Assembly (NCBI GenBank): GCA_937997485.1
Contig: CALKTH010000022.1
Span: 1 to 64,000, forward strand
Source of the DNA: an uncultured Acidimicrobiales bacterium
Lineage (GTDB): Bacteria > Actinomycetota > Acidimicrobiia > Acidimicrobiales > SZUA-35
Direction: 5' to 3'
DNA: 64,000 nucleotides
Shown piece after piece: positions 4,677 to 41,949 of the stretch. Below the pieces are notes generated by a model. It was not told the origin of the DNA. It searched no databases and saw nothing but the letters and a program-made list of their open reading frames with translations. The position numbers were made by a program, and so were the translations under genes. Every line of letters begins with the position of its first letter. Within the stretch, counting starts at the first letter, position 1.

Positions 4677-4706
4677 CGTGTGCGCCTTCCCATGCTCCGC
4701 CCGGCG

Positions 4707-4729: not shown

Positions 4730-4749
4730 TATCGACCGGGCATTTGTCT

Positions 4750-10484: not shown

Positions 10485-10626
10485 GTGACCCACCAACCAA
10501 ACTTCGAACGCCGCCTACAAGAGCATCTAAATGTACTCCTCTCCCCTTGCGAACCGAACCGGGCAGAAACCCATGTCTGGAACGCTCGATAGGGGCCGTG
10601 CGGATCAGGCGATCTGCTCCCAGGGC

Positions 10627-10632
10627 TAGCCT
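10627..10632 (+). promoter_or_regulatory. Leaderless-type -10 element (TAGCCT) before GT4 gene
   Basis: TAGCCT is followed by exactly 7 nt and then the ATG at 10640. This TAnnnT-N7-start layout recurs in the window and matches leaderless promoters of actinobacteria. No convincing -35 is seen. It sits in the 155-nt divergent gap between the epimerase and the GT4 gene. Confidence 0.5.
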
Positions 10633-10639
10633 CAGCTTC

Positions 10640-12434: not shown

Positions 12435-12533
12435 TGGGTCAGCCTGACAGACAAAACCGCTGTCGGCGAGAGCAAAGCCTCTTGCTGGACCGAGCCGATC
12501 GACTCCTTCGGGGCCGAACGTCCCGGAGCGCGT

Positions 12534-14350: not shown

Positions 14351-14381
14351 GTCGTCCGGTCCCTCCTCGTTCGACGTTCGG

Positions 14382-16882: not shown

Positions 16883-17053
16883 GATCTTCTTTCGGTGCGA
16901 AGGCCCATCAAATGAGCCCGAAGGTCGTCGTGTGACGCAATTTCCCGGGGTTCGCCGCCCACCGCGCCGACCCCGTTCTACCAAGGTTGCGCGAGGTTCG
17001 ACGCACCTTCTCCTACAAGCGGCGGCAATGATCGACCAGACCCATTCCCCAGT

Positions 17054-17067
17054 GGGTGAATTCACCC
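17054..17067. promoter_or_regulatory. 14-bp perfect palindrome GGGTGAATTCACCC between divergent genes
   Basis: A perfect inverted repeat in the 286-nt gap between the uxs-like gene and the initiating sugar transferase. Such a position could let one dimeric regulator control both directions. If translation of the sugar transferase began at the upstream ATG 17028, the site would lie inside codons instead. Role is inferred. Confidence 0.4.
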
Positions 17068-17168
17068 GAGTCACCGAAGCTGTCAACGATGTGGCACTAC
17101 CTTGCTCGAAGGCGACGGGTCGGGCGGAAAACGCGACCTCCGCGCGGCGATGGAGAGGCGAAGTGGCG

Positions 17169-26657: not shown

Positions 26658-27974
26658 TCACCGTGACGTCGGCCGAAGCGCCGCTGGCTCGGGCCGAACC
26701 GCGATCGAGCCCGTTGGGGCCCCTGAGCCGGCTGCCCTGAACAGCGCCGCAAGTCGTCTGGCCTCTTCTTCGCTGTTGAAGTGCTCCACGACGATCTTCC
26801 TTCCCGCGGTCCCGAGCTGGGTACGTAGGGTTCGGTCATCCGCCAGCTTCTGGATGCAGGTTGCGAGCGCGTCGACGTCTCCTGGAGGTACGACGAAACC
26901 GGTTTCACCGTCGATCACGAGTTCGGAGACGCCACCCACCTGGGTTGCGATGACCGGAATACCGGAAGCTTGCGGCTCCATCAAGCTGACAGGTACGCCT
27001 TCAGCGAAGCTCGGCAGAACGTAGATATCGGATCGAGCAAGGAGGTCCGCGACATCCGCCTGGCTCACGTAACCCAGGAACTGGACGGCATCGGCGAGGC
27101 CGACCTTGCGTGCGTGCGATTCGAAGTCGGCTCGCTTTGGTCCGTCGCCGGCAACCTCGAGATGCACCTCAGGCAGCCCCGCAGCTCGCCGGTCTCGATT
27201 CACCTGCGCCATGGCGTCCAGCAGGATCGTGAGACCTTTGACGTGATCGAGCCGAGCGGCGAACGCCAGACGAATCGGAGCGGTGGGGTCAGATTCGGGA
27301 GCATTGAAGCGTGACTCGGCCGATGCCCGATACCGCTCGGGATCGACACCGCAGTGGATGATGTGGAGCTTGTCCGCCGCCTCTTCCGAACTCAGCAGTT
27401 GCGCTTGGCTTCGACAGAACCATGAGATGCAGCTGACAAACGTCGCCCGCTCGATCTTTGCATCGAGCCGCCACGTGTGAGCTTCGAAGAACACACCGGG
27501 GCCATGGAGCGTGAAACTGAATGGAAGGTTGGCGAGGGCCCCCGCCAACATCGCGATCGATGAAGACACATCGCCGAAATGGCTGTGCACGTGCGTGCGC
27601 TTGCCGCCGATCAGGCGCTGGGCGAGCACGCCCGCCTCCAGGAAGTAGAAGAGCTGGTAGAGGCCTCCACGGAGACCTGGCCGTTTCGTGTCCAAGGCAA
27701 GCCGAAGCGCGTCGACGTATCGCTTGGGCGATCGAACGAGCAACCCGAGGTGGGCTTGAACCAGGCCAAGCGGCGAGGGTGGCAGCACGTACGACGTGGC
27801 GTCGCGCATCGCTCGCTGCTCATCGCCGACCATGTGCTCATCACCGGGTCGGCGGGCCGCATGCGTTTCGACGTCGAGGCCGAGATTCCGAAGCGCCTGG
27901 ACTTCGCGCTGGATGAACGTGTCCGTCGCTCTCGGAAACTCAGTGGCGAAGTACGCGATTCGAGGCTCGCTCAT
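26658..27974 (-). CDS. GT4 glycosyltransferase (WcaL-like)
   Basis: This 438-residue GT-B enzyme begins IAYFATEFPRATDTFIQREV, the N-terminal pattern of colanic-acid WcaL-type GT4 enzymes, with HVHSHFGDVSSSIAM and FTLHGPGVF near 126-158. The C-terminal domain has RLAFAARLDHVKGL and SFAEGVPVSLMEPQASGIPVIATQVGG, containing the E-x7-E region in the form MEPQASGIPV (the second Glu is not canonical). It is coupled by ATGA to the SDR gene upstream. It likely adds one sugar of the repeat unit. Confidence 0.87.
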   Translation of the reverse strand: MSEPRIAYFATEFPRATDTFIQREVQALRNLGLDVETHAARRPGDEHMVGDEQRAMRDATSYVLPPSPLGLVQAHLGLLVRSPKRYVDALRLALDTKRPGLRGGLYQLFYFLEAGVLAQRLIGGKRTHVHSHFGDVSSSIAMLAGALANLPFSFTLHGPGVFFEAHTWRLDAKIERATFVSCISWFCRSQAQLLSSEEAADKLHIIHCGVDPERYRASAESRFNAPESDPTAPIRLAFAARLDHVKGLTILLDAMAQVNRDRRAAGLPEVHLEVAGDGPKRADFESHARKVGLADAVQFLGYVSQADVADLLARSDIYVLPSFAEGVPVSLMEPQASGIPVIATQVGGVSELVIDGETGFVVPPGDVDALATCIQKLADDRTLRTQLGTAGRKIVVEHFNSEEEARRLAALFRAAGSGAPTGSIAVRPEPAALRPTSR

Positions 27975-29017
27975 GTCGACCGCTGCACCACATCAGAGAC
28001 AAGGTCGACGCCGGACACGCTTCGTTGCAGTGCGGCAGTCAGATCGTGTCGGGGTGTCCAACCCAAAAGACGCTTCGCCTTGTCGTTGCGGTACACGAAC
28101 GGCTTGAAGCGGGCATCGATCTGATCGGGCATGCCGATGCTCGGGACCTTCGCTCGACCATCGAAGAATTGCTTGTTCACGGCATCGACCGCTGACGCTG
28201 CCGCCCGCATGAGCGGTCGCGGCACGAAGATCGAAGACGGTGTTTCCTCCAACGCCTGGACGCGTTTGGCGTATTCAGCCTGCGTCGGCAGCTCGTCATC
28301 CACGATGTTCACGACCTGGCCGTCGACCTGTGACCGGCGGGCAGGATCCACGATGGCTTCCGCCGCCAGCGCCAAGGCATCGGCGGTGTTCTCCACGTAG
28401 GTGATGGGCGGGCGGGCCTTCGCTCCGATGCGGAGATTGATCGGCCCGAACTCGCCACCAAGAAGCGGATGCCAGAGCTGATCTCGGCCATAGATCATGC
28501 CGGGGCGAATCATGATCATCGCGTTGCCGTCTTCAGCACCGAAGGCCTCGTACAGCTCGTCTTGATACAGCTTCGTTTCGGCGTACTCGTCGCGGCCCCG
28601 CGGGTCGCTGATGACCGGGAACGTCTCATCGAACTCGGTGCCCGCCTTGCGCGCTCCGTAGTCGTAGACGGAGAACGTGCTCACCGCGACGAGATTCTTG
28701 ACACCGGCCTCCCGGGTGGCGAGCAGCAGGTTCTCGGTGCCGAGCACCGTTCCGGCGAATCGAGAGAAGAAGTCGCCACCCTTCACGGCCGCCAGGTGCA
28801 ACACGACGTCGCAGCCGGCAATGCCTTCCGCCAGGCCAGCGCGGGATGCGAGGTCACCACGGCAATACGAGAGCCGGCCAGTCTGCTCTGCCGCCGCCAA
28901 TGCCTTCGGTGATGAGGCGGGACGAACCATCGCCACGACTTCGTGTCCCCGAGCAATGGCCTCGGCAACAACGTGGCGTCCCACGAAACCTGTGGATCCA
29001 GTGATGAAGACCTTCAT
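27971..29017 (-). CDS. NAD-dependent epimerase/dehydratase (extended SDR)
   Basis: This 348-residue protein has VFITGSTGFVGRHVV (TGxxGxxG, about 3-17), DVVLHLAAVKGG, SVYDYGA, and YAETK as the active-site YxxxK. The C-terminal part is of the extended-SDR type (YVENTADAL.LAAEA, VVNIVDDE). The substrate is unknown: the family covers NDP-sugar epimerases, reductases and 3-beta-HSD-like enzymes. ATGA overlaps at both ends place it in a coupled set with the Gfo/Idh/MocA oxidoreductase and the WcaL-like GT4. Confidence 0.83.
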   Translation of the reverse strand: MKVFITGSTGFVGRHVVAEAIARGHEVVAMVRPASSPKALAAAEQTGRLSYCRGDLASRAGLAEGIAGCDVVLHLAAVKGGDFFSRFAGTVLGTENLLLATREAGVKNLVAVSTFSVYDYGARKAGTEFDETFPVISDPRGRDEYAETKLYQDELYEAFGAEDGNAMIMIRPGMIYGRDQLWHPLLGGEFGPINLRIGAKARPPITYVENTADALALAAEAIVDPARRSQVDGQVVNIVDDELPTQAEYAKRVQALEETPSSIFVPRPLMRAAASAVDAVNKQFFDGRAKVPSIGMPDQIDARFKPFVYRNDKAKRLLGWTPRHDLTAALQRSVSGVDLVSDVVQRST

Positions 29018-30102
29018 CGGGACGCCTCCGCTTCGAGCAGCTGATCAACGAGCTGGGCCGCAGCGAGAATCTGGGCCGGCGAAACCGGTGGAGCCTGTCC
29101 GTTTTGGAACGCGGCGTAGGTGTCGTCCAGGAACTTGGCGAGCCCGTGATACGGGCCATGCTGCAGGAGCTTCTGGCCGAAGTTCTTGAACCCCGAACGA
29201 GCGAGCTTGGTGCCATTCACAATGTGATTGACGATCGGCGTGAGCTGCTCCCCACCCGGACGAGGGCCCACCACTTCAAGGAAGGGGTGGAACAGATCCG
29301 TGGCCGCCTGCCCACCGCTTCCCCGCACGACGACGGAGAAGAGGTCAGGTTTGGTGCTGCACGAAAAGCGGAGGCGCCCGTGGAAGGGCCCCGTTGCGTT
29401 GTGGCCGACGAGGAGTGCATCGAGGTCATCGAAGCGGAACAGGTCTCCCCCGCCGTGGTTGCTCCACACGGCGGCGACCCGTTCATACGTCGCTTCTCCC
29501 GACAAGGTGTTCATGAGATATGCGAAGTGGGTGATGAAGTCGTGGATCACTCCGGCCGGCATGTCGTGGATCGGATTCGGCAGGTTCTCATCGGCGAATC
29601 GGCTGCCCTCATCACGAATCGGCAGGGCCATGCGGATGTCGACTTCGTGGACGTCGCCGATCGTTCCTGCTGCGACGACCTTCTGCAGCTCGAGAATCTC
29701 GTCGTTGAAGCGGTAGTTGTGATTCTCGACCAGATGCACCCCGTGCTTCGCTGCGACCGCCAGCAGCTCGGCGGCCTCACTCGACGTAGGTGACATCGGC
29801 TTTTCACAGATGACGTGCACGCCCCGTTCAAGACACATCGTGGCGAGGAAGCCGTGGGTGTTCGGCGGTGTCAGCACATGGACGACGTCGGGCCGAGCCT
29901 GTTCGAGCATCGTTGCCACATCGGTGAAGGAGTCCTCTGCATCGAAGCGTCGGGCGGCGATGCCGGAAGAGACCGGCGAGAGATCGCAGATGCCGACCAA
30001 CCGGGACCGACTGCTCGAGCGCAGAAAGTCCAGGTGTTGCAGTGAGATGGCACCGGCACCGATCACAGCGGATCGGAGCGCGGGAAGGCCGGACGAGGTC
30101 AT
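29014..30102 (-). CDS. Gfo/Idh/MocA family oxidoreductase
   Basis: This 362-residue protein has LRSAVIGAGAISLQHLDFL (Rossmann, about 8-26), DVVHVLTPPNTHGFLA, and HVICEKPMSPT with the catalytic EKP lysine. Family members oxidise or reduce sugars and sugar-nucleotides (for example UDP-GlcNAc(A) 3-oxidases), so it probably modifies a precursor of the surface glycan. I chose ATG 30102, with GGAG 8 nt upstream. The track start (30258) would overlap the sulfotransferase by 74 nt and adds residues without similarity. ATGA overlap with the downstream SDR. Confidence 0.87.
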   Translation of the reverse strand: MTSSGLPALRSAVIGAGAISLQHLDFLRSSSRSRLVGICDLSPVSSGIAARRFDAEDSFTDVATMLEQARPDVVHVLTPPNTHGFLATMCLERGVHVICEKPMSPTSSEAAELLAVAAKHGVHLVENHNYRFNDEILELQKVVAAGTIGDVHEVDIRMALPIRDEGSRFADENLPNPIHDMPAGVIHDFITHFAYLMNTLSGEATYERVAAVWSNHGGGDLFRFDDLDALLVGHNATGPFHGRLRFSCSTKPDLFSVVVRGSGGQAATDLFHPFLEVVGPRPGGEQLTPIVNHIVNGTKLARSGFKNFGQKLLQHGPYHGLAKFLDDTYAAFQNGQAPPVSPAQILAAAQLVDQLLEAEASR

Positions 30103-30184: not shown

Positions 30185-31270
30185 TCAGGGAGCGTCGGGA
30201 GCGAGTCCCAGCTCGGCTTTGCGACTGGGGCTGTAGGCGTACTCTCTGCCGTCCTCACGCCACGAGCGGATTCGGGACGCCCGCTCTCGCTTGTTCATCT
30301 CGGTCTTGCACTTGACCTCGATGCTTCGCACCCCGACCTTGCGGGCCGCGAACTCGGCCAGGAAGTAGGGGCCGTACTCCTCCAACTTGTGCTTCCACTT
30401 CTTGGCAGTGGCCTCGGCCTTGATCTTCTTGAGCTCGTTGGCGCCAACGTCGAGTGCGGGAAGACCGCTTGGCTCGTAGCCCCGCTCAGTCAGGAGCTCA
30501 CCAACACGGGCCTCGGCGAGCTGAATCTCACGCTCTGACATGGTGGTGCGCCACTCGTCGGCCTTTGCAGGATTCGGCCGGTCGTAGTCCGTGGGGGCGA
30601 CGTAGCTGAGCATCTCTGGGTCGTAGGTGACACCAAGGAACGCCAACACTGGCGCCAGCGCTGCCTCGTGATCGGTGGCGAGATCTTCGAACCGGATCTC
30701 GAGACGGCGATCGGCCGGGACCCATTGGCAGAGCTCGTTCCACTCCCGCTCGGTCTCGACCCACTTCTGTGCACTCAGATAGGTGTTGAAGCCCCAGTCC
30801 TTGGCGACCCCGGACTTGGCCATCGCTCGTGGATCCCGGATCAGATGGATGAAGCGGGCATCAGGCCAGAGGCGCAACATCTGGGGAGCGTCTCGATGGA
30901 GCTTGGTGACGAAGATCCCCTTGCCCGCCGCTGCCTTGCGCTGCTCCACGAACGACTGAGCGACCTCGATCACGCTGCCAAGCGAGCTGTCGAAGGTGAG
31001 TCCCATACCGGCGAACTGGTTGTCCGTGGAGAGAAATTCCTCGTATTCCGCCATGGTCGGCAGGCTGATGGTTGCGGGATCTTGACCGGCCTCGGGCGGG
31101 GGAAGCGCCTCAGCGACGAAGCGGAAGCCCTCCATGCACGTGATCTCAGGATGCGAGTCCAGCAGCAAACGGAACAGTGTGGTTCCGGTGCGTTCGGCAC
31201 CGACGAAGAAGACAGGCGACTCGCCAACGTGGGACGGGGTGTGTGTCGAAGGTTGGTCTGAGCTGGACAT
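30185..31270 (-). CDS. PAPS-dependent sulfotransferase (first of three)
   Basis: This 361-residue protein has the 5'-phosphosulfate loop VGAERTGTTLFRLLLDSHPEI (about 23-43) and the 3'-phosphate-binding segment RFIHLIRDPRAMAKSG (about 138-153), the two hallmarks of the sulfotransferase superfamily (Sulfotransfer_3 type). It transfers sulfate from PAPS, probably to a sugar or lipid-linked glycan. Its C-terminus contains SWREDGREYAYS, nearly shared with the paralogue at 35326-36306 (SWREPGREYSV). A leaderless -10 (TAGCGT, 7 nt before the ATG) precedes it, so it probably starts the minus-strand run to the GH74-like gene. Confidence 0.88.
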   Translation of the reverse strand: MSSSDQPSTHTPSHVGESPVFFVGAERTGTTLFRLLLDSHPEITCMEGFRFVAEALPPPEAGQDPATISLPTMAEYEEFLSTDNQFAGMGLTFDSSLGSVIEVAQSFVEQRKAAAGKGIFVTKLHRDAPQMLRLWPDARFIHLIRDPRAMAKSGVAKDWGFNTYLSAQKWVETEREWNELCQWVPADRRLEIRFEDLATDHEAALAPVLAFLGVTYDPEMLSYVAPTDYDRPNPAKADEWRTTMSEREIQLAEARVGELLTERGYEPSGLPALDVGANELKKIKAEATAKKWKHKLEEYGPYFLAEFAARKVGVRSIEVKCKTEMNKRERASRIRSWREDGREYAYSPSRKAELGLAPDAP

Positions 31271-31277
31271 CCGGGCG

Positions 31278-31283
31278 ACGCTA
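31278..31283 (-). promoter_or_regulatory. Leaderless-type -10 element (TAGCGT) before sulfotransferase
   Basis: On the minus strand TAGCGT is followed by CGCCCGG (7 nt) and the ATG at 31270, the same spacing seen at 10627 and 39882. It would start transcription at or next to the A of the ATG. Confidence 0.5.
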
Positions 31284-31427
31284 GCGGCGGGCCGGGCGGA
31301 CGGCGACGAGGCAAAAACCTGACGAGCCGCCTACCATCGCGGCGCGGCAGGGCAGTCGACGCATTTTGATGCAACGTCCGGCTGTGTAGGCCGTTGCGAA
31401 GATGCGTCTGCGAGATGGCATGACGCT

Positions 31428-31445
31428 GACCACACCGATGTGGTC
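31428..31445 (+). repeat. Hairpin GACCACA-CCGA-TGTGGTC upstream of GT4 gene
   Basis: A perfect 7-bp inverted repeat with a 4-nt loop ends 18 nt before the chosen ATG of the GT4 gene at 31464. It covers the alternative GTG start at 31440. It might be an operator or a 5'-UTR stem; nothing further can be said. Confidence 0.4.
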
Positions 31446-31463
31446 GAACAGACCGGAATCGGG

Positions 31464-32615
31464 ATGACACCTTTGGAGAACTCACTCCCAGCGACACCAA
31501 CACCTCGTGGTTCGCGGCTCGGCTCGAGGTTCGCCATTGCGATGAGCACCTCCGTCGACAGCCAGTCGTTTCGGGACCGGCACGCGGCAGACCTGGGACC
31601 CCATCACACCATGGTGAGCCTCGCCGACCTCACCGGCGGCAGCCTCATGCAACCGGACGGCGGCCCACCGAGTATCTTCGACCGCGTCGGAGGCAAATTG
31701 ATCGGTCGGCCCGAGCTGTGGACATCTGCTCGCGCAATCCTGCGCAGCGATGCCGACGTCGTCTACTGCACCGGTGAAGACATCGGCATTCCGCTGGCCC
31801 TTCTCGCCTCGGTCCGACGTCGCTCGATGGCCGTCGGCATCTACTTCCTCGCACCTCAGCGGCCGCGAGCCAAGTTTCTGGGCCGGGCGGCTCTCCGTCT
31901 TCTGCCGAACACGTTCGCTGCCACGGGAACGGAAGCGAAGCTGACCTTCCTGGAAGGCTGGCTCAAAGACTCGGTCAACGAACTGGTGCTGGCCCACGAA
32001 CAGACCGACACCACGTTCTTCCGTCCCGCCGACGTCGCCGGTGCCACAAACCCCGCCGCCACTCGAGTCCACATCGCCAGCTGCGGACTCGAGCAGCGAG
32101 ACTACGTGAAACTCAGCAAGGCCCTCGGCCGTCTGAACCGAGATGGGATCGAGGTAACGGCCGGTGTGTGTGCCGTCTCCCCCAACTTCTCCGATCGCAC
32201 GCGAGTGGAAATCCCTGAAACGCTGCCGACAGGGATGGAGATGCGTCACTACGAGTTCGATGAGCTACGGGATCTCTACCGCACGGCGACCGTCACGGTG
32301 ATTCCGCTGCTCGAGAACGAGTATTCAGCCGGGCTCACCACGATGCTCGAGGCCATCGCGTGTGGCTCGCCGGTCATCATGACCCGAACCGAAGGCCTCG
32401 CCTCGGACTTCATCGATCAAGATCTCATCGTGGGTATTCCTCCCGGTGACGATGAAGCGCTGGCAGATGCGATCAAGATGGTGATCAAGGAACCCGATGA
32501 ACACCGGGAACGTGCCGAACGTGCACGGAACTGGGTCCTCACCAATCACTCGAGCACGCCCTACGTCGAAACGCTTGCCGCCGCTGCAGAGCGCGCCGGC
32601 GCCACACAGCACTGA
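31464..32615 (+). CDS. GT4-like glycosyltransferase
   Basis: About 383 residues, GT-B type. The N-terminal half is not strongly conserved. The C-terminal half has VTVIPLLENEYSAGLTTMLEAIACGSPVIMTRTEGL (about 272-307), the donor-site E-x7-E-like motif of GT4 enzymes. ATG 31464 is preceded by GGAATCGGG; the track start GTG 31440 is an alternative. The Wzy-like gene begins 10 nt downstream, so the two form a short plus-strand operon. Confidence 0.8.
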   Translation: MTPLENSLPATPTPRGSRLGSRFAIAMSTSVDSQSFRDRHAADLGPHHTMVSLADLTGGSLMQPDGGPPSIFDRVGGKLIGRPELWTSARAILRSDADVVYCTGEDIGIPLALLASVRRRSMAVGIYFLAPQRPRAKFLGRAALRLLPNTFAATGTEAKLTFLEGWLKDSVNELVLAHEQTDTTFFRPADVAGATNPAATRVHIASCGLEQRDYVKLSKALGRLNRDGIEVTAGVCAVSPNFSDRTRVEIPETLPTGMEMRHYEFDELRDLYRTATVTVIPLLENEYSAGLTTMLEAIACGSPVIMTRTEGLASDFIDQDLIVGIPPGDDEALADAIKMVIKEPDEHRERAERARNWVLTNHSSTPYVETLAAAAERAGATQH

Positions 32616-32625
32616 ACACCACTCC

Positions 32626-34077
32626 ATGACCACGATCTCTCCCGATTCCCCTACCGCTCCCGACGGTGACGCCGCAGGGCCGAGCACGGATCTCATTCCC
32701 GCGGCCGCGCCGACCGAACGTCCACAGCCTCCGCGGTTCACTCGCATTGGCGATCGGGTCGGCTTCAACCCGGCACCGAAGACCGCCGAACCCTTCGGTC
32801 CCTTTGCCCTCGGCTTCGGAAGTTTGTACATCACGATCTCCTTCTTCCTTGCGGCTCCCGTGATGCCGCTCGAGCCTCGCTGGGCAACCCTGACCCTCGC
32901 CTTTGCCATGGGTTCGTTGCTCCTCATCCCGAGAGAGCACATGCGACGCATGGTCGTCGACGGTCCCGTGATGCTGATGGCCTTTTGGATTGCAATCACT
33001 GCGCTGTGGTCGGTCAATCCGAGCTTTGCCGTGTTCCAGGTTCGGCGAGATCTTCCCGTCGTGATCGCCGTCAGCCTCCTGGCGGGGGCACTTCCTTCCG
33101 ATGTCACCATTCGGGCGATCCGTCGGGCGATCTGGATCGCCATGGGCATTACCGCCTTCGCCCTTCTCATCGACCCCGAGACCCGAAGCCACGCCGCCGA
33201 CGGCATCTACGCCGACCCCTATCCCGGCTGGCACGGCTGGTTCATTCACAAGAACACGATGGCGCCGTACATGGTCATGGGCCTGATCACCACGCTCATG
33301 TTCGACAAGGAACCGCTCCGACGGGGCCTCACGCTCGCCGGACTGGCGGTGCTTCTGATCGGATCTGACTCCGCCACGGGCCTTTCGGCCGGGATGTTCG
33401 TCGTGGCGCTTTGGGTCTGGTTCCGACTGTTCCATCGCAGCGGTGGGCGTTGGTCCACCGGCTATGTCGTGGCTTCGACTGCTGTGGCACTGTGCGGACT
33501 GATGGGTGCCATCGCCTCGCTCAGCGCCCTGACCAGCGCGTACGGCAAGGACCTGACCTTCAGTGGGCGCACGTTCATCTGGAGCGCCGTGTTGAGCGCT
33601 ATCGAGAAGCGGCCGTTCACCGGCCAAGGCCTCGGCAGCGTGTTTTGGATTCCCAACTCCATCACCAGAGAGATCTGGCGAGATGTGGGGTTCAAGATCC
33701 CGCACTCGCATAGCGGCACGCTCGACGTCGTGCTCAACTTCGGACTCATCGGTCTCGTGCTCTTCACCGTGATGTTCCTCAGTTCGATCGCCATGGGCAT
33801 TCGCCTGTTGCGCATCTCCCCCGTCGTGGCGGAGTGGTTCCTGATTCTGCTGGCCGCTCAGTTCCTGATGGGCCTCTCGGAAAACGTGTTCCTCGGATCC
33901 TGGCTCGTCTATATGGCGGCGGCTCGCGGCGTCGTGCAACGCCGGACACGGGACGGCGATCCCGAGCCCGAGTCGAAGCCGGCGGCCAAGCCTGGCGGGC
34001 TGCAGCATTCAAACCTTCCCGAACTCACCGCGGGATCAGGCAGCTCGGCAACACCTGCCCTGCCGTCCGGCCACTGA
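32626..34077 (+). CDS. O-antigen ligase/Wzy-like polysaccharide polymerase (second copy)
   Basis: This 483-residue polytopic protein has about ten helices after a Pro/Asp-rich cytoplasmic N-terminus. It carries a SGRTFIWSAVLSAIEKRPFTGQGLGS segment and, near residue 360, KIPHSHSGTLDVVLNFGLIG, the His-containing Wzy_C loop that matches the first copy at 1694-3052. Internal landmarks such as GKDLTFSGRTFIW here and GKDVTLTGRTTLW there show that the two are paralogues. It probably polymerises or ligates a lipid-linked glycan. The track ORF adds 43 residues from the 3' end of the GT4 gene; ATG 32626 is preferred. Confidence 0.85.
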   Translation: MTTISPDSPTAPDGDAAGPSTDLIPAAAPTERPQPPRFTRIGDRVGFNPAPKTAEPFGPFALGFGSLYITISFFLAAPVMPLEPRWATLTLAFAMGSLLLIPREHMRRMVVDGPVMLMAFWIAITALWSVNPSFAVFQVRRDLPVVIAVSLLAGALPSDVTIRAIRRAIWIAMGITAFALLIDPETRSHAADGIYADPYPGWHGWFIHKNTMAPYMVMGLITTLMFDKEPLRRGLTLAGLAVLLIGSDSATGLSAGMFVVALWVWFRLFHRSGGRWSTGYVVASTAVALCGLMGAIASLSALTSAYGKDLTFSGRTFIWSAVLSAIEKRPFTGQGLGSVFWIPNSITREIWRDVGFKIPHSHSGTLDVVLNFGLIGLVLFTVMFLSSIAMGIRLLRISPVVAEWFLILLAAQFLMGLSENVFLGSWLVYMAAARGVVQRRTRDGDPEPESKPAAKPGGLQHSNLPELTAGSGSSATPALPSGH

Positions 34078-34131
34078 CACGACGCCAACGAGCGGCCTCA
34101 GCCATCCCGCGTCGAGCGTCTCGAGGCTCAG

Positions 34132-34167
34132 GAGCCGTGAGATCGGCGCGAGCCGTGAGATCGGCGC
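34132..34167. repeat. Perfect 2 x 18-bp tandem repeat between convergent genes
   Basis: GAGCCGTGAGATCGGCGC occurs twice head to tail with no spacer, just after a small GGCTC-AG-GAGCC hairpin (34125-34136), in the 96-nt gap between the convergent Wzy-like and GT genes. It may be part of a terminator, or a replication-slippage duplication. Confidence 0.7.
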
Positions 34168-34173
34168 GATTCG

Positions 34174-35274
34174 TCAGCGCTCAGCGAGGACACCATCGAG
34201 GACACGCACCAGCGATCGAGCCGCAGCCTGATCGGTTGCGTTCTCGGTCGCCCAATGCAATGCGCCAGCGGCAAGTCGAGAGCGAAGCGCCTCGTCATTC
34301 CACATCCCGTCGATGGCATCAGCCATCGCGGTGGCATCACGCATCGGAACAATCAGGGCGTTGTCGTCATGGTGCACGTAATCGTCGATGCCAGGACGAT
34401 CGCTGACCACCACTCCCCGTCCGTGACGGAAGGTCTCGGCGAACGTGATGATGCCGCCGGTCAGCCCACCCTCATGCATGGGGATGACGTTCACCCGCGC
34501 TTGCCGCACGAGGTGATGAATGTCTGAGCGGTTCAGTCCCTCGAGGATCTCGACGTTGGTCGGAGGCGTGAGTCCAGCGAGGACACGTGGGCCGGCCACC
34601 ACCTTGGCCTTCATTGGCAGCAGCGCCATGGCATCAAAGAACGTGCCGTAGTCGCGGAAGCCGGAGCCAGTCGCAAACACGAACGGATCCTCGGTGTCTT
34701 CTTCGTCGGTCTGCACCGTGCCGCCGTACTGGACAGGCACGAATTCGAAGCGCTCCGCTGGCAAGCGCAGTTCCTCGGCGTATGCCTCGATCTCGCGGGA
34801 GGAGTGCACGACGAAGCGATCAACTGCGTCAAGGGTGCGGCGGGCGAGCGCAGTGCGAGCGTCGTTGCCGAAGTTCGTGTTGAAGAACCAGGCGACGAGC
34901 GGAACGTCGAGCCGTCGGAGCTTCTTGCGCGAAGCGGCCGAGGCGGCCAGCTGTGGAAAGACCGTCACGACGCCGCCGTTGACGGACGAGGCCATGCGCA
35001 ACGCGGCCGTCGACGTACGGGCGAAGTCTCGCCACTCGCCGAGGCCCGTGCGAGCAACCTTCTTCGAGTGCCAAGAGATCTCGCCCCCGATCTTGGGAAC
35101 GATCACGAAGTCGTGGCGATCGGTCTCGGCGAACGACGAGATCCAACGGTGGCTTGGGTCGGTCAGGAACGGAGCAGTCACTGCCCACGTCACGGAGTCT
35201 TGGCCAGTCGAGATCGCCGAATCTTCCGCATCTTCATGGCGCGGGCGGGCCTCGTTCGCTGCGGTCACTTCCAT
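34174..35274 (-). CDS. GT4-like glycosyltransferase
   Basis: About 366 residues from ATG 35274, preceded by GAGGGGAAC. The GT-B C-terminal domain contains VQARVNVIPMHEGGLTGGIITFAETFRHGRGVVVSDRPGIDDYV-like sequence, in which ITFAETFRHGRGVV corresponds to the E-x7-E donor loop. A NTNFGN segment and a mid-protein VVHSSREIEAYAEEL lie in the acceptor half. It follows the second sulfotransferase on the same strand with a 51-nt gap and may add the sugar that is then sulfated. Specificity is unknown, and family confidence is moderate. Confidence 0.72.
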   Translation of the reverse strand: MEVTAANEARPRHEDAEDSAISTGQDSVTWAVTAPFLTDPSHRWISSFAETDRHDFVIVPKIGGEISWHSKKVARTGLGEWRDFARTSTAALRMASSVNGGVVTVFPQLAASAASRKKLRRLDVPLVAWFFNTNFGNDARTALARRTLDAVDRFVVHSSREIEAYAEELRLPAERFEFVPVQYGGTVQTDEEDTEDPFVFATGSGFRDYGTFFDAMALLPMKAKVVAGPRVLAGLTPPTNVEILEGLNRSDIHHLVRQARVNVIPMHEGGLTGGIITFAETFRHGRGVVVSDRPGIDDYVHHDDNALIVPMRDATAMADAIDGMWNDEALRSRLAAGALHWATENATDQAAARSLVRVLDGVLAER

Positions 35275-35325
35275 GTTGTTCCCCTCACTCTTCAACATCC
35301 CGTGTCTCGGTGTCGTGCGAGGCCG

Positions 35326-36306
35326 TCAGTTCTTCACGCTGTACTCTCGGCCGGGCTCTCGCCACGACCGCTTTCGATTCGCCCGCTCGATCTCGTTGAA
35401 GCGCAGCTTGACGGACTTCTGATACCCCGGGATGGGCAGCACTCGGCTCAAACCTCGTTCGACGAAGAGTCGCAATCCGAACTTGTCGATCCTCTTCTTC
35501 CATTGCTTCATTCGGTTATCGGCCTGAAGCGTCAACATTTCAGTCTTTCCCGGTTTGATGACCGGAAGACCGCTGAGCTCGAAGCCGCGGGACTGCATCA
35601 GGTCGCCGACACGACCTTCCACGAGTCCGATCTCACGATCGCTGAGCTTCTTGTGCCACTGAGCAACCTTCGAGGGATCCGGCACGCCGTAGTCGGTGTC
35701 GTTCGCGTAGTCGAGCATCTGCTGGGTGTAGGGAACCGAGAGAAACTCGGTGATACGCCGGAGTTGCGTTTCGTGGTCGCCGATGAGGTCGGCGTAGGGA
35801 ATCTCGATGTGCTGTTCGGAGCGCAGCTTCGGAACCAAGCGGTCCCATTCCTCTTCGGCCAGGATCCACTTGTCGAGTCCGAACCACACGTTGCCCTGCC
35901 ATCCCATCTGCAGAACCGAACTCGTGACGTCTCGTGGGTCTCGCAGAACGTGAATGAAGCGGGCGTTTGGCCAGAGTTCGAGGAGACGGGCGAAGTGGAA
36001 GTGGACCATCGCCGACACTTGGTCTTTGCCAGAGAGGTCCAGCCGCTGTTGCAGAAAGCTGTTGACGAGCGATGGGTAGTCCAGCGACCGATCGACGGTC
36101 AGATTGGCGCTACCGAAGATGTTGTGCGCCGAAAGGTAGTCCCAATATCGCTGCATCTCTGGGTACGAGCCGTCGTCACCCATGAGGTCCACGATGAACT
36201 CGAAGCCCTCGCAACCCGTGATGTCGGGGTGCGAGTCGAGCATGAGTCTCAACAGCGTCGTGCCTGAGCGTTCGGCACCGACGAGGAAGATGGGTGAGTC
36301 GATCAT
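35326..36306 (-). CDS. PAPS-dependent sulfotransferase (second of three)
   Basis: This 326-residue protein has IFLVGAERSGTTLLRLMLDSHPDI (5'-phosphosulfate loop, about 5-28) and RFIHVLRDPRDVTSSV (3'-phosphate site, about 120-135). It is a clear paralogue of 30185-31270, sharing the VGAER.GTTL.RL.LDSHP core, the SDREI/SEREI region and the C-terminal SWREPGREY motif. I start it at ATG 36306 (MIDSP); the longer track ORF has no similarity in its first 89 codons. The upstream ribosome binding site is weak. Confidence 0.87.
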   Translation of the reverse strand: MIDSPIFLVGAERSGTTLLRLMLDSHPDITGCEGFEFIVDLMGDDGSYPEMQRYWDYLSAHNIFGSANLTVDRSLDYPSLVNSFLQQRLDLSGKDQVSAMVHFHFARLLELWPNARFIHVLRDPRDVTSSVLQMGWQGNVWFGLDKWILAEEEWDRLVPKLRSEQHIEIPYADLIGDHETQLRRITEFLSVPYTQQMLDYANDTDYGVPDPSKVAQWHKKLSDREIGLVEGRVGDLMQSRGFELSGLPVIKPGKTEMLTLQADNRMKQWKKRIDKFGLRLFVERGLSRVLPIPGYQKSVKLRFNEIERANRKRSWREPGREYSVKN

Positions 36307-36613
36307 GTGTGTTGCGAGATCCTGGATCTGGTGGGAGGGGGAAATGGCGAGCTCACCGCACGCGGGAGCGCAGCCGGTAGCAACCCTACCTATCGACAAC
36401 GTGGCGCAGAAGCTGGAGACCTGCCCATCATCAACTGTGGGTCGTTCGGCACACGCACCCCAAAGATCCGCCCACATCGGGTTTGGCGCTTGACGCGAGT
36501 CACGCCCGTGTGCAGCGCTAACCTGCGCTGGGCGGCGAACGCAGCCACAGCGGCACACACCTGATCGGACCACGACAGTCCGATCACCCTCGACTGATCT
36601 GATCGCGGAGCGG
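36307..36613. promoter_or_regulatory. 307-nt divergent intergenic region with two hairpins
   Basis: This gap separates two divergent sulfotransferase genes. It contains a perfect 6-bp stem CAGCGC-TAACCT-GCGCTG (36513-36530) and a perfect 9-bp stem TGATCGGAC-CACGACA-GTCCGATCA (36562-36586), the latter ending 27 nt before the plus-strand ATG. No clear -35/-10 pair was found in either direction. No coding frame with family similarity was recognised here. Confidence 0.55.
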
Positions 36614-37480
36614 ATGCGACTTCCTGATTTCTACATCATCGGCGCGATGAAGGCCTCGACGTCGACGCTGCACGACCAGTTGGCCGCGCAGTCCGGCCTT
36701 TGGATGAGCGATCCCAAAGAGCTCTACTTTTTCAGTGACGACCCGGTGTACGCCAGAGGTCTCGACTGGTACGCATCGCACTTTGCCGACGCCGCACCGA
36801 CCGATCTATGCGGTGAGTCCACCACGCACTACGCCAAGCTGCCGACCTACCCAAAGACCATCGAGCGCATCGCTGCGGCGACACCCGATGCCTCGTTCAT
36901 CTACGTGATGCGGCACCCGATCGATCGCTTGGTCTCGCAGTACACCCACATGTGGTTGGAGCGCGAAGTCACGGTGTCGTTCAGCGACGCCGTCGACGGC
37001 GCCGTACCCGAACTCGTCGACTACAGCCGGTACACGACTCAACTCACCCCCTTCTTCGAACAGTTCGGACAGGACCGGGTCCTGCCGGTGTTCTTCGACC
37101 GGATGCATGCCCAGCCAGATCTGGAACTCGAGCGGGTCTGTTCGTTTCTTGGGTACACCGGCACGCCGTCGTGGCAACACGATCTCGGTGCGAACAACGT
37201 TTCGAGCGAACGCTTGCAAAGCAGTGCGACGCGTGACCGTTTGAAAGACATCCCGGGTTATCAGCAGATGCGGGCGCTGATTCCTGAGCAAGCAATCGAA
37301 CGGGTGCGTGACCGTTGGCGGCCGAAGGAGCGTCCGTCGCTGAGTGAGGCGCAGCTGCAGCGTTTGACGTCCATCTTTGATGCCGACCTCGCCGTCCTCG
37401 GCGAGTGGGTCGGTGCAGACCTGAATTGCGAGAACTTCAAGACGGTGAGCGCAGCCATTGCCCTCGAGTGGGCTCGTTGA
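36614..37480 (+). CDS. Sulfotransferase (third; heparan-sulfotransferase-like)
   Basis: This 288-residue protein starts MRLPDFYIIGAMKASTSTLHDQL, the 5'-phosphosulfate loop in the form found in Sulfotransfer_1/heparan N-sulfotransferase-like proteins. It is followed by PKELYFFSDD and FIYVMRHPIDRLVSQYTH, the 3'-phosphate-binding segment, at about 95-112. It is not a close paralogue of the other two sulfotransferases, so a different acceptor or position is likely. It is preceded by GCGGAGCGG and is joined by TGATG to the Wzx-like flippase, which suggests that sulfation and export belong to the same pathway. Confidence 0.87.
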   Translation: MRLPDFYIIGAMKASTSTLHDQLAAQSGLWMSDPKELYFFSDDPVYARGLDWYASHFADAAPTDLCGESTTHYAKLPTYPKTIERIAAATPDASFIYVMRHPIDRLVSQYTHMWLEREVTVSFSDAVDGAVPELVDYSRYTTQLTPFFEQFGQDRVLPVFFDRMHAQPDLELERVCSFLGYTGTPSWQHDLGANNVSSERLQSSATRDRLKDIPGYQQMRALIPEQAIERVRDRWRPKERPSLSEAQLQRLTSIFDADLAVLGEWVGADLNCENFKTVSAAIALEWAR

Positions 37481-38784
37481 TGCGGTCTCGCCTCCAAGGT
37501 TTGGTTCGGCGCTATCGAGAAATGGCGACCGACGTCGCCTGGTCGGCGATCAGCGACGGCCTCACGTTGGTCGTGAATCTGACCTCGTTCCTGCTGCTGT
37601 TCCGATCGCTCGAAATCGAAACCTACGGCGGCTACGTCGGCGTTTACGGCGTGATCGGACCGCTGGGCGCCCTCACGTTCTCCGGCATGTCGCTGCTGAT
37701 CCTCCAGCGCATCATCCGAGAGAAGGAGGATCCGCAAGAGGTCTTCTTCCGCACATTCGGGCTGACGCTTCTCCAGGGTGCGGTTGCCACCACGCTGGCC
37801 TTCCTCATTGGCCGAGAAGTCATCTCCGTGCTCGACAGCACGACGATCTTGCTGATGGCCATCGCCGAGTTGTTGGTGTTCCCGGTCTCCCAGACCGTCA
37901 CGATGATGGTGCAGGCTGTTCGGGGTTTCGCTGCCTCGGCCCGCTTCAAGATCTTCATCCCGCTCGTCCGGTTCGCGGCATTGATCGCCTGTTGGGCAAC
38001 AGGCAATCTCACCGTCCGCAATCTGGCGATCGCGTGGATCATCGGCTTCACCCTCACCGGGCTTGTGGCGATTCGAGCCGTGGTGCCCGCCCTCGGTCTC
38101 CGCGTCGGTGTGCGCAAGGCGCCGGCGAGCTACCTCCGAGGCAACCTCGAACTCGCCCTTCCGTTGTTCTCCTCGAACCTGCAGCAGAACGGCGACAAGG
38201 CCGTCATGAACCGCTTCGGTTTCGAGCAGGATGCTGGCTTTTACGGCGCAGCGTTCCGCGTGATCATGCTGGCCCAGATGCCGATTCGCACCATGAACCA
38301 GGCGCTCTTCCAGCGATTCCTGCCGACCGGCGACGATGATCGAGGCCTGCATCTCCGGCGAGCGCAGCGTTTCGCTTCGGTCTCGCTTCCCCTCAGCCTC
38401 AGCATCGCGGTGATCATCTACTTCACCGCTCCCCTGCTCGGCTTCCTCGTCGACGACATCGACACGTCGATCTCGATGATTCGCTGGTTGCTGCCCGTTG
38501 TCCCGCTGTTCTCGATCAGCAGGGCGCCACTCAACGGCCTGCTCGGACTCGGCCGGACCACGCTTCGGGCCGGCATCATCCTCAGCTCCTCGTTGCTCAG
38601 CATGACGCTGTATCTGAGCTTGATTCCGTCGATGTCGTGGCGTGGCGCGGTCATCGGGACGATCGTGTCCGAGCTCTACCTGACCGCCGTCAGCTGGTTC
38701 ATGCTGTGGCGAGCCCAGCGAGCGGCTGATGCTTCGGCGGACGTTGCCGAGTCGCTGGGACAGCTCAGCGTCGATCTTGACTGA
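37480..38784 (+). CDS. Wzx-like lipid-linked oligosaccharide flippase
   Basis: This 434-residue polytopic protein has about 12 helices, consistent with the polysaccharide biosynthesis (MATE-like/MOP) flippase family. Features include an early TDVAWSAISDGLTLVVNLTSF helix and a mid-protein LRGNLELALPLFSSNLQQNGDKAVMNRF segment like that between helices 6 and 8 of Wzx proteins. It would move an undecaprenyl-linked repeat unit across the membrane for polymerisation by one of the Wzy-like proteins. The start at 37480 shares a base with the sulfotransferase stop (TGATG). No second flippase was found in the window. Confidence 0.87.
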   Translation: MRSRLQGLVRRYREMATDVAWSAISDGLTLVVNLTSFLLLFRSLEIETYGGYVGVYGVIGPLGALTFSGMSLLILQRIIREKEDPQEVFFRTFGLTLLQGAVATTLAFLIGREVISVLDSTTILLMAIAELLVFPVSQTVTMMVQAVRGFAASARFKIFIPLVRFAALIACWATGNLTVRNLAIAWIIGFTLTGLVAIRAVVPALGLRVGVRKAPASYLRGNLELALPLFSSNLQQNGDKAVMNRFGFEQDAGFYGAAFRVIMLAQMPIRTMNQALFQRFLPTGDDDRGLHLRRAQRFASVSLPLSLSIAVIIYFTAPLLGFLVDDIDTSISMIRWLLPVVPLFSISRAPLNGLLGLGRTTLRAGIILSSSLLSMTLYLSLIPSMSWRGAVIGTIVSELYLTAVSWFMLWRAQRAADASADVAESLGQLSVDLD

Positions 38785-38838: not shown

Positions 38839-39771
38839 TCAGATCTCGTGGTGATCGAGCTTCACCCCAACGAGGCCAGACATCGTACCCAAACCCTCCA
38901 TGACCAGGGCCGCCGTGTACCGCAACTGCGGGGGCTTGCGGGCCGAGAGCTGGCGGAGCGGATGGAGGAGACCCTGCGCGATGGCCTTGCCGGAGCGAAG
39001 GAACAACCGCGACTTGGTGGCATCTCCGCTGCGATGGTTCGTGAGGTACTTGGTGTTGCCCATCCAGGCCGCGCGCCGAAGCTGGTAGCCGAGTGTGGAC
39101 CGTTCATCTGGTTCGATTTCGTACACGGCGGTCTTGACCGAGAAGCGGCACGCCAGCCCGGCGCCGACCGCCTGGCGGTAGAAGACCATGTCTTCTCCCC
39201 CGAGTACTCCGAGATCGGGATCGAATCGGATCTCCGGATGTTCGAGAAGAAACGACCCGCGGAGCATGGAGTTGCCCGTTGCGCAGATCGGAACTTCGCT
39301 GTCCTCTTCGTACTCGAGCAGGCCGAATCGATCGAACGGCTCGTCGTGGATCCACGACGGTGCGTCCTTGGGAAAGGTGAGGAGCAGCGGCCCGGTCGTT
39401 GCATCGGCACCTGTCCGCGTCTGGAGATCGAGGTGCTGCACGAGCCAGTCTTCAGGTACGACGATGTCGTCATCGGTCATGGCGACCCAGTTCCCGAGCG
39501 AGGCAGCCGCGTCGAGCCCGGTGTTTCGGGCAATGGAAATGTTCTGCGAACCAGCGTGGCGGTAGTGCAGGCCAAGCGGGAACGAGAGATCGAACGAATC
39601 GACCACGGCCTTGGCCCGACCATCCGGATTGTCATCAACGACGACCACCGCCACGGAGGCGCGATCAGCCACTCGTTCGGCCGCAACATGCAGCGAACGC
39701 AGCAGTCGCTCGAGCGGTTCGTTGCGCTTGTAGGTGCAGACGTAGACGGCGATCGAGTCGGGAGCGCTCAC
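38839..39771 (-). CDS. GT2 family glycosyltransferase
   Basis: About 310 residues from GTG 39771, preceded by AGGAG. The start SAPDSIAVYVCTYKRNEPLERLL is the GT2 N-terminus. ISIARNTGLDAAASLGNWVAMTDDDIVVPEDWL (about 77-109) contains the DxD-type DDD motif, and LGVLGGEDMVFYRQAV the GED acidic residue. It is divergent from the third Wzz/BY-kinase gene and convergent with the flippase gene. The ORF track begins 16 codons upstream. Confidence 0.87.
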   Translation of the reverse strand: MSAPDSIAVYVCTYKRNEPLERLLRSLHVAAERVADRASVAVVVVDDNPDGRAKAVVDSFDLSFPLGLHYRHAGSQNISIARNTGLDAAASLGNWVAMTDDDIVVPEDWLVQHLDLQTRTGADATTGPLLLTFPKDAPSWIHDEPFDRFGLLEYEEDSEVPICATGNSMLRGSFLLEHPEIRFDPDLGVLGGEDMVFYRQAVGAGLACRFSVKTAVYEIEPDERSTLGYQLRRAAWMGNTKYLTNHRSGDATKSRLFLRSGKAIAQGLLHPLRQLSARKPPQLRYTAALVMEGLGTMSGLVGVKLDHHEI

Positions 39772-39881
39772 GATGCTCCTGTCGGCTGTGGAGCGAAGTA
39801 CCCAAGCGGTCCGGGCCAAATCCCCCGAATTTCAGCCGCATACAGGGGAATTCCTCTATCAGGAATCTCACACCGGTGGCC

Positions 39882-39887
39882 TAGACT
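39882..39887 (+). promoter_or_regulatory. Leaderless-type -10 element (TAGACT) before third Wzz/BY-kinase
   Basis: TAGACT is followed by exactly 7 nt and ATG 39895. The spacing matches a transcript that starts at the A of the start codon. No ribosome binding site is visible before this ATG, which agrees with leaderless translation. Confidence 0.55.
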
Positions 39888-39894
39888 CTTGCGC

Positions 39895-41949
39895 ATGGCG
39901 GGCAACACTAGTGACGGCGAGCTCGATCTCGCGGACTACCTCAAGATCCTCAAGCGTCGATGGCGATGGTTTGCCCTCGGCCTGGTCACAGTGATGTCGC
40001 TGGCGGTCACGCTGAGCCTCACGCAACCTGATCGCTTTCGGGCCTCTTCTGCAGTGCTTCTCCGTACATCGGCAGCACAGGATGCACTTGATCAGGGGAT
40101 CCTGAGCACGTCGTTCCTTTCCCGTGAGCTTGGCAACGAGATCAACTTCGCCGAGAGCGACGTCGTTCGTGACGCCGTTGAGGCCGATATCGGCATCATC
40201 CCGAGCGTGAGCATCAGCAACGAAAGCGGCACCGACCTCCTCGTCTTCACTGCCACCGCTTCGTTCCCCCAAAACGCTGCGCGCGACGCAAACGCCTGGG
40301 CCACCGCTTACATCGATGCAAAACGAGAGATTGCCTCCACCTCGATCCTCGGTGCCGTTGAAGAGTTCGAGGCCGAGCTTGCCGACCTACGAGCACAGCG
40401 GGCCAGCGTCCGTGCCCCCCTCGATGATCTCGAGCGTGAACTGGCCGGCGCCACCGTCGTTTCTCGGCCCGACCTCGAGAAGCAGATTGATGCGCTCGAG
40501 CTGCAGGTTGCCGATGAGCTTGCGGTGATCGACGCGCAGATCGCGGGAACGTTCGATCGCAGCGATCTGTCGCTCCTCCGGTCAGAACGTCGGCGCCTCC
40601 TCGCCCCCATCACAGCGCTCCAGCAAGATCTTCCCATCGCCTCTGAGGTCTCACGGGCGCAGCTGCAGGTCCAAGTCGACATTCTGACCAACCAGCTGGC
40701 CGGCGAGCTCGACCTCATCGATGCCCGGATCAATACCACTGCTCGCAACATCACCGACCTTGAGCTCTCCAGCCAGCTTGCCGCCGAAGGCACCGGTCGA
40801 GTCGTACAGGTGGCCGCCGTTCCGAGCGCTCCCATCAACGCCCCGATCGAGCGCAACATCGCCCTCGGGCTCGTCGTCGGATCCATCCTCGGCCTCGCTG
40901 CGGCGCTCCTCGCCGAGACGCTCGATCAGAGCATCAACTCGGCCGACGACATCCGCTCGCTGACCGACGTACCGGTCTTGGGCACCGTGCCCGAGTCCAG
41001 CAAGGACGAGGCGAAGGAAGAACTCGCCCTCGCCACCCTGCTCAGTCCGACGAGCGGGATTGCGGATGCGTACCACAAGGTCCGATCGTCGTTGCAGTAC
41101 GCCCTGGTCGACAACGCCGCATCGTCCATTCTCGTCACCAGTGCCAACGAATCGGAAGGCAAGACCACGTCCGCGGTCAACATCGCCTGGGCCCTGGCCG
41201 GGGTTGGCAATCGTGTCGCCCTCGCCGACGCCGACTTCCGTCGCCCCCGAGTCCATGCGGTGTTCGGTCTGCCGTCGAGCCCGGGTCAGAGCGATCACCT
41301 GCTCGGGTCCACTCCCCTCGTGGACCTCGTCCGTCACATCAATCACCCCGAGCACTCGATGGTGGTCCTGCCAACCGGCACGCTTCCACCCAACCCGGCT
41401 GACTTCGTGGCCTCGAGATCCTTCACGGCACTGCTCGCTGATCTCGCTCGTGAGTCTGACGTTCTCGTCCTTGATGCACCGCCTGTGCTGCCCGTGTCTG
41501 ACGCCGTCACGACTGCACGCTCGGTCGACGCCACCATCCTCACCGTTCGAGCCCGCTCGACGACGAAGGAACAGCTCGAGCAAGCAATCGACGCCCTTCG
41601 ACAGGGTGGCGCTCACCTCGTCGGCATCGTGCTTGTCGGTGGCCGGGCAAAGGAAACCACGTACTACGGAGAAAGCAGCGGCGCCGTTCGTCCGAGCGTG
41701 ATCACCAGGGATCGGGGCACACTCATCGTGCCGACGCCCGGCGCACTGCCCACAGCGACCGCGCCTCGCCCGAGCGCTCCGTCCCCCGCGCCCGAAGCTG
41801 CGAACGCAGCCTCGGCCCCGGACGGACAAACCATCTCGTTGCAGACTGTTGACACTGCAGTGTCGGTGCCAGCGGCACCATCAGTGGTGCCGAACGGGGC
41901 GTCGAGTAACGGCGCTCGCCGAAACGGCAAGGGTCCTCGCTCCGCCTGA
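39895..41949 (+). CDS. Wzz/BY-kinase-type polysaccharide co-polymerase (third of three)
   Basis: A 684-residue protein. The Wzz domain has helices at about 26-44 and 320-340 around a long coiled coil. The kinase domain carries SANESEGKTT (Walker A, about 416-425), VALADADFRRP (Walker A', 441-451) and DVLVLDAPPVL (Walker B, 522-532). After the kinase core, ETTYYGE gives two adjacent tyrosines, followed by a ~110-residue Ala/Pro/Ser-rich tail. The coiled coil contains two similar ~50-residue stretches (LERELAG..., then LQQDLPI...), suggesting internal duplication. The track ORF extends 362 codons upstream, antisense to the GT2 gene; ATG 39895 is the real start. Confidence 0.9.
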   Translation: MAGNTSDGELDLADYLKILKRRWRWFALGLVTVMSLAVTLSLTQPDRFRASSAVLLRTSAAQDALDQGILSTSFLSRELGNEINFAESDVVRDAVEADIGIIPSVSISNESGTDLLVFTATASFPQNAARDANAWATAYIDAKREIASTSILGAVEEFEAELADLRAQRASVRAPLDDLERELAGATVVSRPDLEKQIDALELQVADELAVIDAQIAGTFDRSDLSLLRSERRRLLAPITALQQDLPIASEVSRAQLQVQVDILTNQLAGELDLIDARINTTARNITDLELSSQLAAEGTGRVVQVAAVPSAPINAPIERNIALGLVVGSILGLAAALLAETLDQSINSADDIRSLTDVPVLGTVPESSKDEAKEELALATLLSPTSGIADAYHKVRSSLQYALVDNAASSILVTSANESEGKTTSAVNIAWALAGVGNRVALADADFRRPRVHAVFGLPSSPGQSDHLLGSTPLVDLVRHINHPEHSMVVLPTGTLPPNPADFVASRSFTALLADLARESDVLVLDAPPVLPVSDAVTTARSVDATILTVRARSTTKEQLEQAIDALRQGGAHLVGIVLVGGRAKETTYYGESSGAVRPSVITRDRGTLIVPTPGALPTATAPRPSAPSPAPEAANAASAPDGQTISLQTVDTAVSVPAAPSVVPNGASSNGARRNGKGPRSA

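Follow-up and report, generated by a model that had tools for sequence, protein, structure and literature searches.

The 64,000-nt stretch analyzed here (the window; its base 1 is base 1 of the contig) most probably carries a polysaccharide locus of the Wzx/Wzy type whose extracellular product is sulfated, with three sulfotransferase genes, here called ST1, ST2 and ST3, lying within 7.3 kb. The window belongs to a genome of the Acidimicrobiia (G000; 4.86 Mb in 158 contigs, 93% complete), and genome-wide statements on it are based on searches. A sequence-only reading of positions 30185-37480 had proposed a likely sulfated exopolysaccharide in an actinobacterium; as far as sequence comparison goes, this proposal is supported by counterparts of XssA and XssE, two sulfotransferases of the cyanobacterial synechan (xss) cluster, and by genes for the sulfate donor 3′-phosphoadenosine-5′-phosphosulfate (PAPS).

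ST1 (30185-31270, minus strand) and ST2 (35326-36306, minus strand) match Pfam Sulfotransfer_3 with E-values of 1.4e-26 and 4.5e-32, and ST3 (36614-37480, plus strand) matches both Sulfotransfer_3 (2e-20) and Sulfotransfer_1 (1e-13), so that the three sulfotransferases read from this polysaccharide locus are confirmed by Pfam. For ST2, the ATG at 36306 agrees with the homologs as the start, the reading frame itself opening at 36573. ST1 and ST2 are paralogous, as had been said of them, with 40% identity over their full length and a common C-terminal tail. Pfam also bears out the genes that the sulfotransferases were described as flanking: a GT4-type glycosyltransferase (GT4d, 31542-32615, plus strand; Glyco_trans_1_4 and Glycos_transf_1), an O-antigen polymerase-like membrane protein with about seven membrane-like segments (Wzy2, 32626-34077, plus strand; Wzy_C, 4e-15) and a second GT4-type glycosyltransferase (GT4e, 34174-35298, minus strand; orthologs in G038, G008, G004 and G037). 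The junction of ST3 with the flippase gene wzx (37480-38784, plus strand; Pfam Polysacc_synt) is the TGATG already pointed out, at 37478-37482, where the ST3 stop codon TGA (37478-37480) shares its last base with the flippase start codon ATG (37480-37482). G000 holds 12 Sulfotransfer_3 matches genome-wide, and the placement of three of them inside 7.3 kb has a p of about 0.0015 under uniform placement; clustering by chance is ruled out because the locus is conserved in other genera.

All three enzymes belong to the PAPS-dependent sulfotransferase superfamily. Their Pfam hits are to Sulfotransfer_3 and Sulfotransfer_1, with weak ones to Sulfotransfer_2 and Sulfotransfer_4 and none to Stf0 (PF09037), and none of the three has a hydrophobic membrane segment, including an N-terminal anchor of the eukaryotic Golgi type. 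The structural model of ST3 (predicted local distance difference test, pLDDT, 86) comes closest to the bacterial sulfotransferase 3rnl and to human heparan 3-O-sulfotransferases, with a template modeling (TM) score by target of about 0.7, and that of ST2 (pLDDT 90) to tyrosylprotein sulfotransferases (TPSTs) and to the sulfotransferase domains of CurM and olefin synthase (OLS). The earlier description of the third enzyme as heparan-sulfotransferase-like thus stands as regards the fold, but not the description of it as unrelated, ST3 being distantly related to ST1 and ST2 within one superfamily. The models suggest that ST3 (3-O-sulfotransferase-like) and ST2 (TPST-like) share fold and PAPS site with the animal heparan 3-O-sulfotransferases and TPSTs, from which they differ in an identity of only about 20%, in the missing membrane anchor and in their bacterial polysaccharide setting. 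The motifs that bind the 5′- and 3′-phosphate of PAPS are invariant in our alignments, and so is Glu68 of ST3 in the motif GES(T/S)THY (GESTTHY in ST3), which we take to correspond to the catalytic glutamate of heparan sulfotransferases.

The xss cluster on plasmid pSYSM of Synechocystis sp. PCC 6803 makes the exopolysaccharide synechan, for which chemical measurement gave Rha:Man:Gal:Glc:sulfate 1:1:1:5:2, i.e., about two sulfates per eight-sugar repeat (Maeda et al., 2021; PMC8205485). In a search of plasmid proteins, the best match for both ST3 (54%) and ST2 (44%) came from pSYSM. With XssA (40411-41316) and XssE (43343-44293) of pSYSM assigned via gene order in the xss cluster, ST3 is 54% identical to XssA over 286/288 residues and ST2 is 44% identical to XssE over 307 residues. 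Compared with the 12 sulfotransferases of G000, XssA matches ST3 best and the next one at 27%, the two being each other's best match among the sulfotransferases compared, and XssE matches ST2 (44%) and then ST1 (35%). Judged from these alignments, ST3 is the XssA ortholog and ST2 the XssE counterpart. Loss of xssA in Synechocystis abolished bloom formation and suppressed the exopolysaccharide (PMC8205485), and it was restated in 2026 that only loss of xssA abolishes synechan (PMC13125312).

Furthermore, the PAPS pathway that the sequence-only reading had asked for is present in G000, as a cysD-cysN-cysC operon on contig C152 that runs divergently to a Wzz gene lying at the end of the contig. 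A polysaccharide locus lies next to the operon in G000, G038, G036 and, by less direct evidence, probably G037. Strong matches to reductases of adenosine 5′-phosphosulfate (APS) or PAPS occur in 11 of the 39 genomes of the family surveyed; in G000, G038, G036 and G037 no such reductase (CysH) was found, the only hit being a cross-match of CysD, and PAPS in these genomes is therefore not explained by CysH-type assimilation. The end of a further G000 contig, C33, is 84% identical over 1.6 kb to the cysD-Wzz junction of C152, the pair reflecting either a duplicated segment or the presence of two strains in the assembly; C33 continues past the junction into Wzz, Wzy-like, Wzx-like, Alg14/Alg13-like and GT2 genes, the last ones being named by eye from the sequence.

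Like xss, the window has a Wzx/Wzy/Wzz architecture by Pfam, a priming transferase similar to XssP (PHPT1, 44%), a glycosyltransferase similar to XssI (GT4c, 32%) and two similar to XssN (TagA1 and TagA2, 32 and 26%). Unlike xss, it has a third sulfotransferase, ST1, as well as RfbF, UGD, UXS, Gfo/Idh and BNR genes, none of which was seen in the xss stretch compared, and its host is one of the Acidimicrobiia, in another phylum than the cyanobacteria, for which the regulators XssQ/R/S are described (PMC8205485). Several points weigh against the proposed sulfated polysaccharide or its likeness to synechan. The window Wzx and Wzy are unrelated to XssH and XssF, with no blastp-level homology; neither XssB nor XssM, glycosyltransferases commonly found alongside XssA, has a clear counterpart or a blastp match in the window; loss of xssE has little effect in Synechocystis (PMC8205485); in the literature on synechan we found no report of its sulfated positions; CysC is present in 36 of the 39 family genomes, many of them without ST3, and is thus permissive and non-discriminating, for which reason the PAPS pathway was dropped as a discriminating test; and the organism is an uncultured genome bin, known from genes alone. 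Since its Wzx and Wzy are unrelated to XssH and XssF, the polymer is not synechan, and with the sulfotransferases common to both systems and the assembly machinery different, the polymers differ. Going by gene content, the locus works like xss and is a variant of it; in view of XssB and XssM it is no strict member. The XssB profile gave a weak match to GT2a only (1.5e-5), and an XssM profile match on the Gfo/Idh protein was rejected as probably an artefact of a 773-residue apparent fusion in the profile, XssM being a GT2. A cyanobacterial protein of 773 residues (L166:4457-6778), in an XssA-containing locus, combines an XssM match over 327 residues with an apparent Gfo/Idh-like part.

We surveyed 39 genomes of one Acidimicrobiia family, whose genera carry labels such as g1, g4 and g11; the named records among these relatives are genome bins of Acidimicrobiia or Acidimicrobiales, two of them carrying the label Actinomycetes. 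The neighborhood comparison across Acidimicrobiia that had been suggested as a check found the cluster conserved in g1, g4 and g11, with strong ST3 matches (58-66%) in six genomes besides G000 and ST3 adjoining Wzx in all seven genomes carrying it. A compact cluster in G036 (g11) holds PHPT1, an epimerase, RmlC, a SAF-type oxidoreductase, RfbF, WzzBYK2, ST2, ST3, Wzx and Wzy, which ties its parts to one polymer. In two g4 genomes, G004 and G007 (81 and 76% complete), no ST3 was detected and Wzx directly adjoins ST1. Between G004 and G005 (also g4), ST1, Gfo/Idh, the epimerase, GT4c, GT2a and WzzBYK2 are 65-78% identical, and identity drops to 36-49% for Wzx, ST2, GT2b, Wzy2 and GT4d; from these sequences, ST2, ST3, Wzx and Wzy look to have been exchanged as a chemotype block. 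Such an exchange is consistent with, but does not prove, a flippase that is matched to sulfated units. The history of Wzx was rejected as proof of ST3-Wzx co-evolution, a single g4 Wzx clade not being rejected (approximately unbiased, AU, test, p 0.22). ST2-like genes also stand alone, outside polysaccharide loci and beside pilus-like or housekeeping genes, in g2, g6 and g10 (L054, L055, L058-L062); in L061 the ST2-like gene directly precedes a polysaccharide locus.

The same comparison bears on how many of the three enzymes modify this polymer. As a variant of the proposed sulfated polysaccharide rather than an exclusive alternative to it, only one or two of them may do so, with ST1 sulfating another glycan; we regard this as a serious possibility, if not the outcome we expect. 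ST1 is found in two genera, g1 and g4, where it precedes the Gfo/Idh and epimerase genes, and it travels with a Gfo/Idh-epimerase-GT4c-BNR-TagA block that is vertically conserved in g4, separately from the exchanged ST2-ST3-Wzx-Wzy block; in g11, ST2 and ST3 are present and no ST1 was found. Against such a division, ST1 is kept in one cluster, about 4 kb from ST2, wherever both share a contig.

Beyond the family, XssA-type proteins (46-60% to ST3) were found in 12 of 390 cyanobacterial and 5 of 297 planctomycete genomes, in one gammaproteobacterial bin and on one Jannaschia plasmid, and among 395 Acidimicrobiia and 397 phylum-wide Actinomycetota genomes (overlapping samples) nothing outside the home family exceeded 38% to ST3. 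The XssA-type genes are found among or next to glycosyltransferase genes in all four settings, and several of them are also partnered by a gene of the XssE type; the usual neighbor of XssA in cyanobacteria and planctomycetes is XssB and/or XssM, with XssE nearby in some. The ST3 clade (support 100/98) is nested in the cyanobacterial-planctomycete XssA group, although the AU test also allows it to be placed with other actinobacterial sequences (p 0.45). The narrow distribution and the nested placement favor a lateral origin, and ST3 was likely acquired by lateral transfer. ST1 and ST2, by their trees, arose by duplication inside the family (ST1 clade 100/100, ST2 clade 98/92).

This distribution also speaks to the acceptor. 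The sulfotransferases could act on a glycolipid or small molecule, like NodH and NoeE on Nod factors or Stf0 on mycobacterial sulfolipids, with the polysaccharide setting incidental. The rhizobial and mycobacterial enzymes NodH, NoeE, Stf0 and STF1/STF9 are likewise PAPS sulfotransferases, with glycolipids or carbohydrates as acceptors, and such a role would agree with a weak NCBIfam NoeE match of ST1, with the 29% identity of ST3 to Sinorhizobium sulfotransferases and with the lone ST2-like genes of g2, g6 and g10. Yet the rhizobial hits reach about 29% at best, far below the 54% between ST3 and XssA; several phyla have their XssA-type genes among or next to polysaccharide genes; the genes for ST3 and the flippase overlap; and Stf0 is absent from the Pfam hits. 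To our knowledge, NodH, NoeE, Stf0 and STF1/STF9 do not occur in Wzx/Wzy loci. By analogy, a lipid or small-molecule acceptor, named in the sequence-only reading as evidence that would count against it, is unlikely because the product of the cluster that holds XssA and XssE is a measured sulfated exopolysaccharide, and we consider an incidental polysaccharide setting very improbable. That the cluster has decayed or its enzymes are inactive, leaving the polymer unsulfated, is scarcely credible, since nothing in the window points to it and only some ST2-like matches of relatives show a single in-frame stop, whereas the frames are open at 57-70% identity across three genera, the PAPS-binding motifs and the candidate catalytic glutamate of ST3 are invariant and the predicted folds are confident.

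For the sulfated extracellular polysaccharide that we propose, the lipid-linked repeat unit would be built on the cytoplasmic side by the priming transferase PHPT1 and the glycosyltransferases, and PAPS would be made by CysD-CysN-CysC. Soluble ST3 (XssA type), ST2 (XssE type) and probably ST1 would transfer sulfate from PAPS to specific sugar hydroxyls, and the sulfated unit would be flipped by Wzx, translated in overlap with ST3; Wzy2 would then polymerize the flipped units under the control of Wzz/bacterial tyrosine (BY) kinases, followed by export. A sulfated product, the identity of the sulfated sugars and sulfation ahead of flipping are what we infer, the last because the enzymes are without membrane segments, PAPS is a cytosolic donor and ST3 overlaps the flippase gene. 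A more far-reaching and rather doubtful idea is that XssA and XssE form a sulfation cassette that moved between phyla and was fitted to unrelated Wzx/Wzy, the ST2-ST3-Wzx-Wzy block being exchanged because the flippase prefers the sulfated unit, with sulfation licensing export.

The initial 42 kb of the window amount to a single large polysaccharide region; it encodes two Wzy, one Wzx, three Wzz/BY-kinase-like proteins and two priming transferases, the latter identified via similarity to XssP. Beyond wzx lie GT2b (38839-39819, minus strand; Glycos_transf_2, 1e-15), which in g1 and g4 keeps its place close to ST3 and Wzx, and a Wzz + BY-kinase-like ATPase (39831-41949, start provisional, plus strand; Wzz and ParA/AAA_31). 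Downstream of ST1 and on the same, minus, strand follow a Gfo/Idh/MocA sugar oxidoreductase (29014-30102; Pfam, 4e-26), which adjoins ST1 in G038 and G004-G008, an NAD-dependent sugar epimerase/dehydratase (27971-29017; Epimerase, 3e-26), GT4c (26658-27974; Pfam), similar to XssI along its length, and a BNR/Asp-box beta-propeller protein with a lipoprotein-like N-terminus (24289-26583; Sortilin-Vps10 and BNR, with the NCBIfam F510_1955 glycosylhydrolase below cut-off), by these matches a possible polysaccharide hydrolase. The minus strand continues with a WecG/TagA/CpsF glycosyltransferase (23352-24182; Pfam, 6e-27; 26% to XssN), GT2a (22447-23355; Pfam), the Wzz + BY-kinase-like ATPase WzzBYK2 (20512-22407; Pfam), which adjoins ST2 in g11 (L052, L053), and an RfbF-like glucose-1-phosphate cytidylyltransferase (19682-20506; NCBIfam TIGR02623, 7e-73, below cut-off). 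PHPT1 (17028-18785, plus strand), whose similarity to XssP extends over 190 residues, is also in the compact g11 cluster L052.

Next to the sulfotransferase locus, positions 1-16000 hold another Wzy/Wzz polysaccharide locus that is truncated where the contig begins; its counterpart in G038 runs on to a Wzx-like gene (L127:12849-13532). Elsewhere in G000, a further polysaccharide locus (L015:2594-4783, contig C98) carries two more sulfotransferases, one of them fused to a GT4 (729 aa). The window contains no tRNA. Within the PHP domain of DnaE, the DNA polymerase III alpha subunit (41965-46653, minus strand), an intein with Hint and LAGLIDADG domains occupies about residues 134-512; the DnaE proteins of G004, G005 and G006 align as two segments of about 130 and about 1050 residues and look intein-free.

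According to published statements, sulfated polysaccharides of bacteria are limited to the cyanobacteria and a small number of marine bacteria (PMC8205485, PMC13125312), and Maeda et al. (2021) remarked that no other bacterial cluster had been found to have two sulfotransferases (PMC8205485). A hint of a sulfated polysaccharide in Actinoplanes came in 2026: the wps-1 locus of Actinoplanes missouriensis, of the Wzx/Wzy type and needed for normal sporangia, encodes two sulfotransferases that belong to separate subfamilies, one of them resembling heparan sulfotransferases, the sulfation of its product being still unverified (PMC13390465). Compared by published description only, wps-1 is like the present locus an actinobacterial Wzx/Wzy locus with sulfotransferases of different subfamilies, but differs in gene content. 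The nearest described systems are thus xss and wps-1, and our search found no literature on sulfotransferase polysaccharide loci in Acidimicrobiia. The locus supplies new bacterial carbohydrate sulfotransferases for enzymology, one of them heparan-3-O-sulfotransferase-like, and XssA and XssE beside Wzx/Wzy provide a sequence signature for finding further producers. With a three-sulfotransferase locus conserved in the Acidimicrobiia, a sulfated polymer in another phylum becomes a directly testable prediction.

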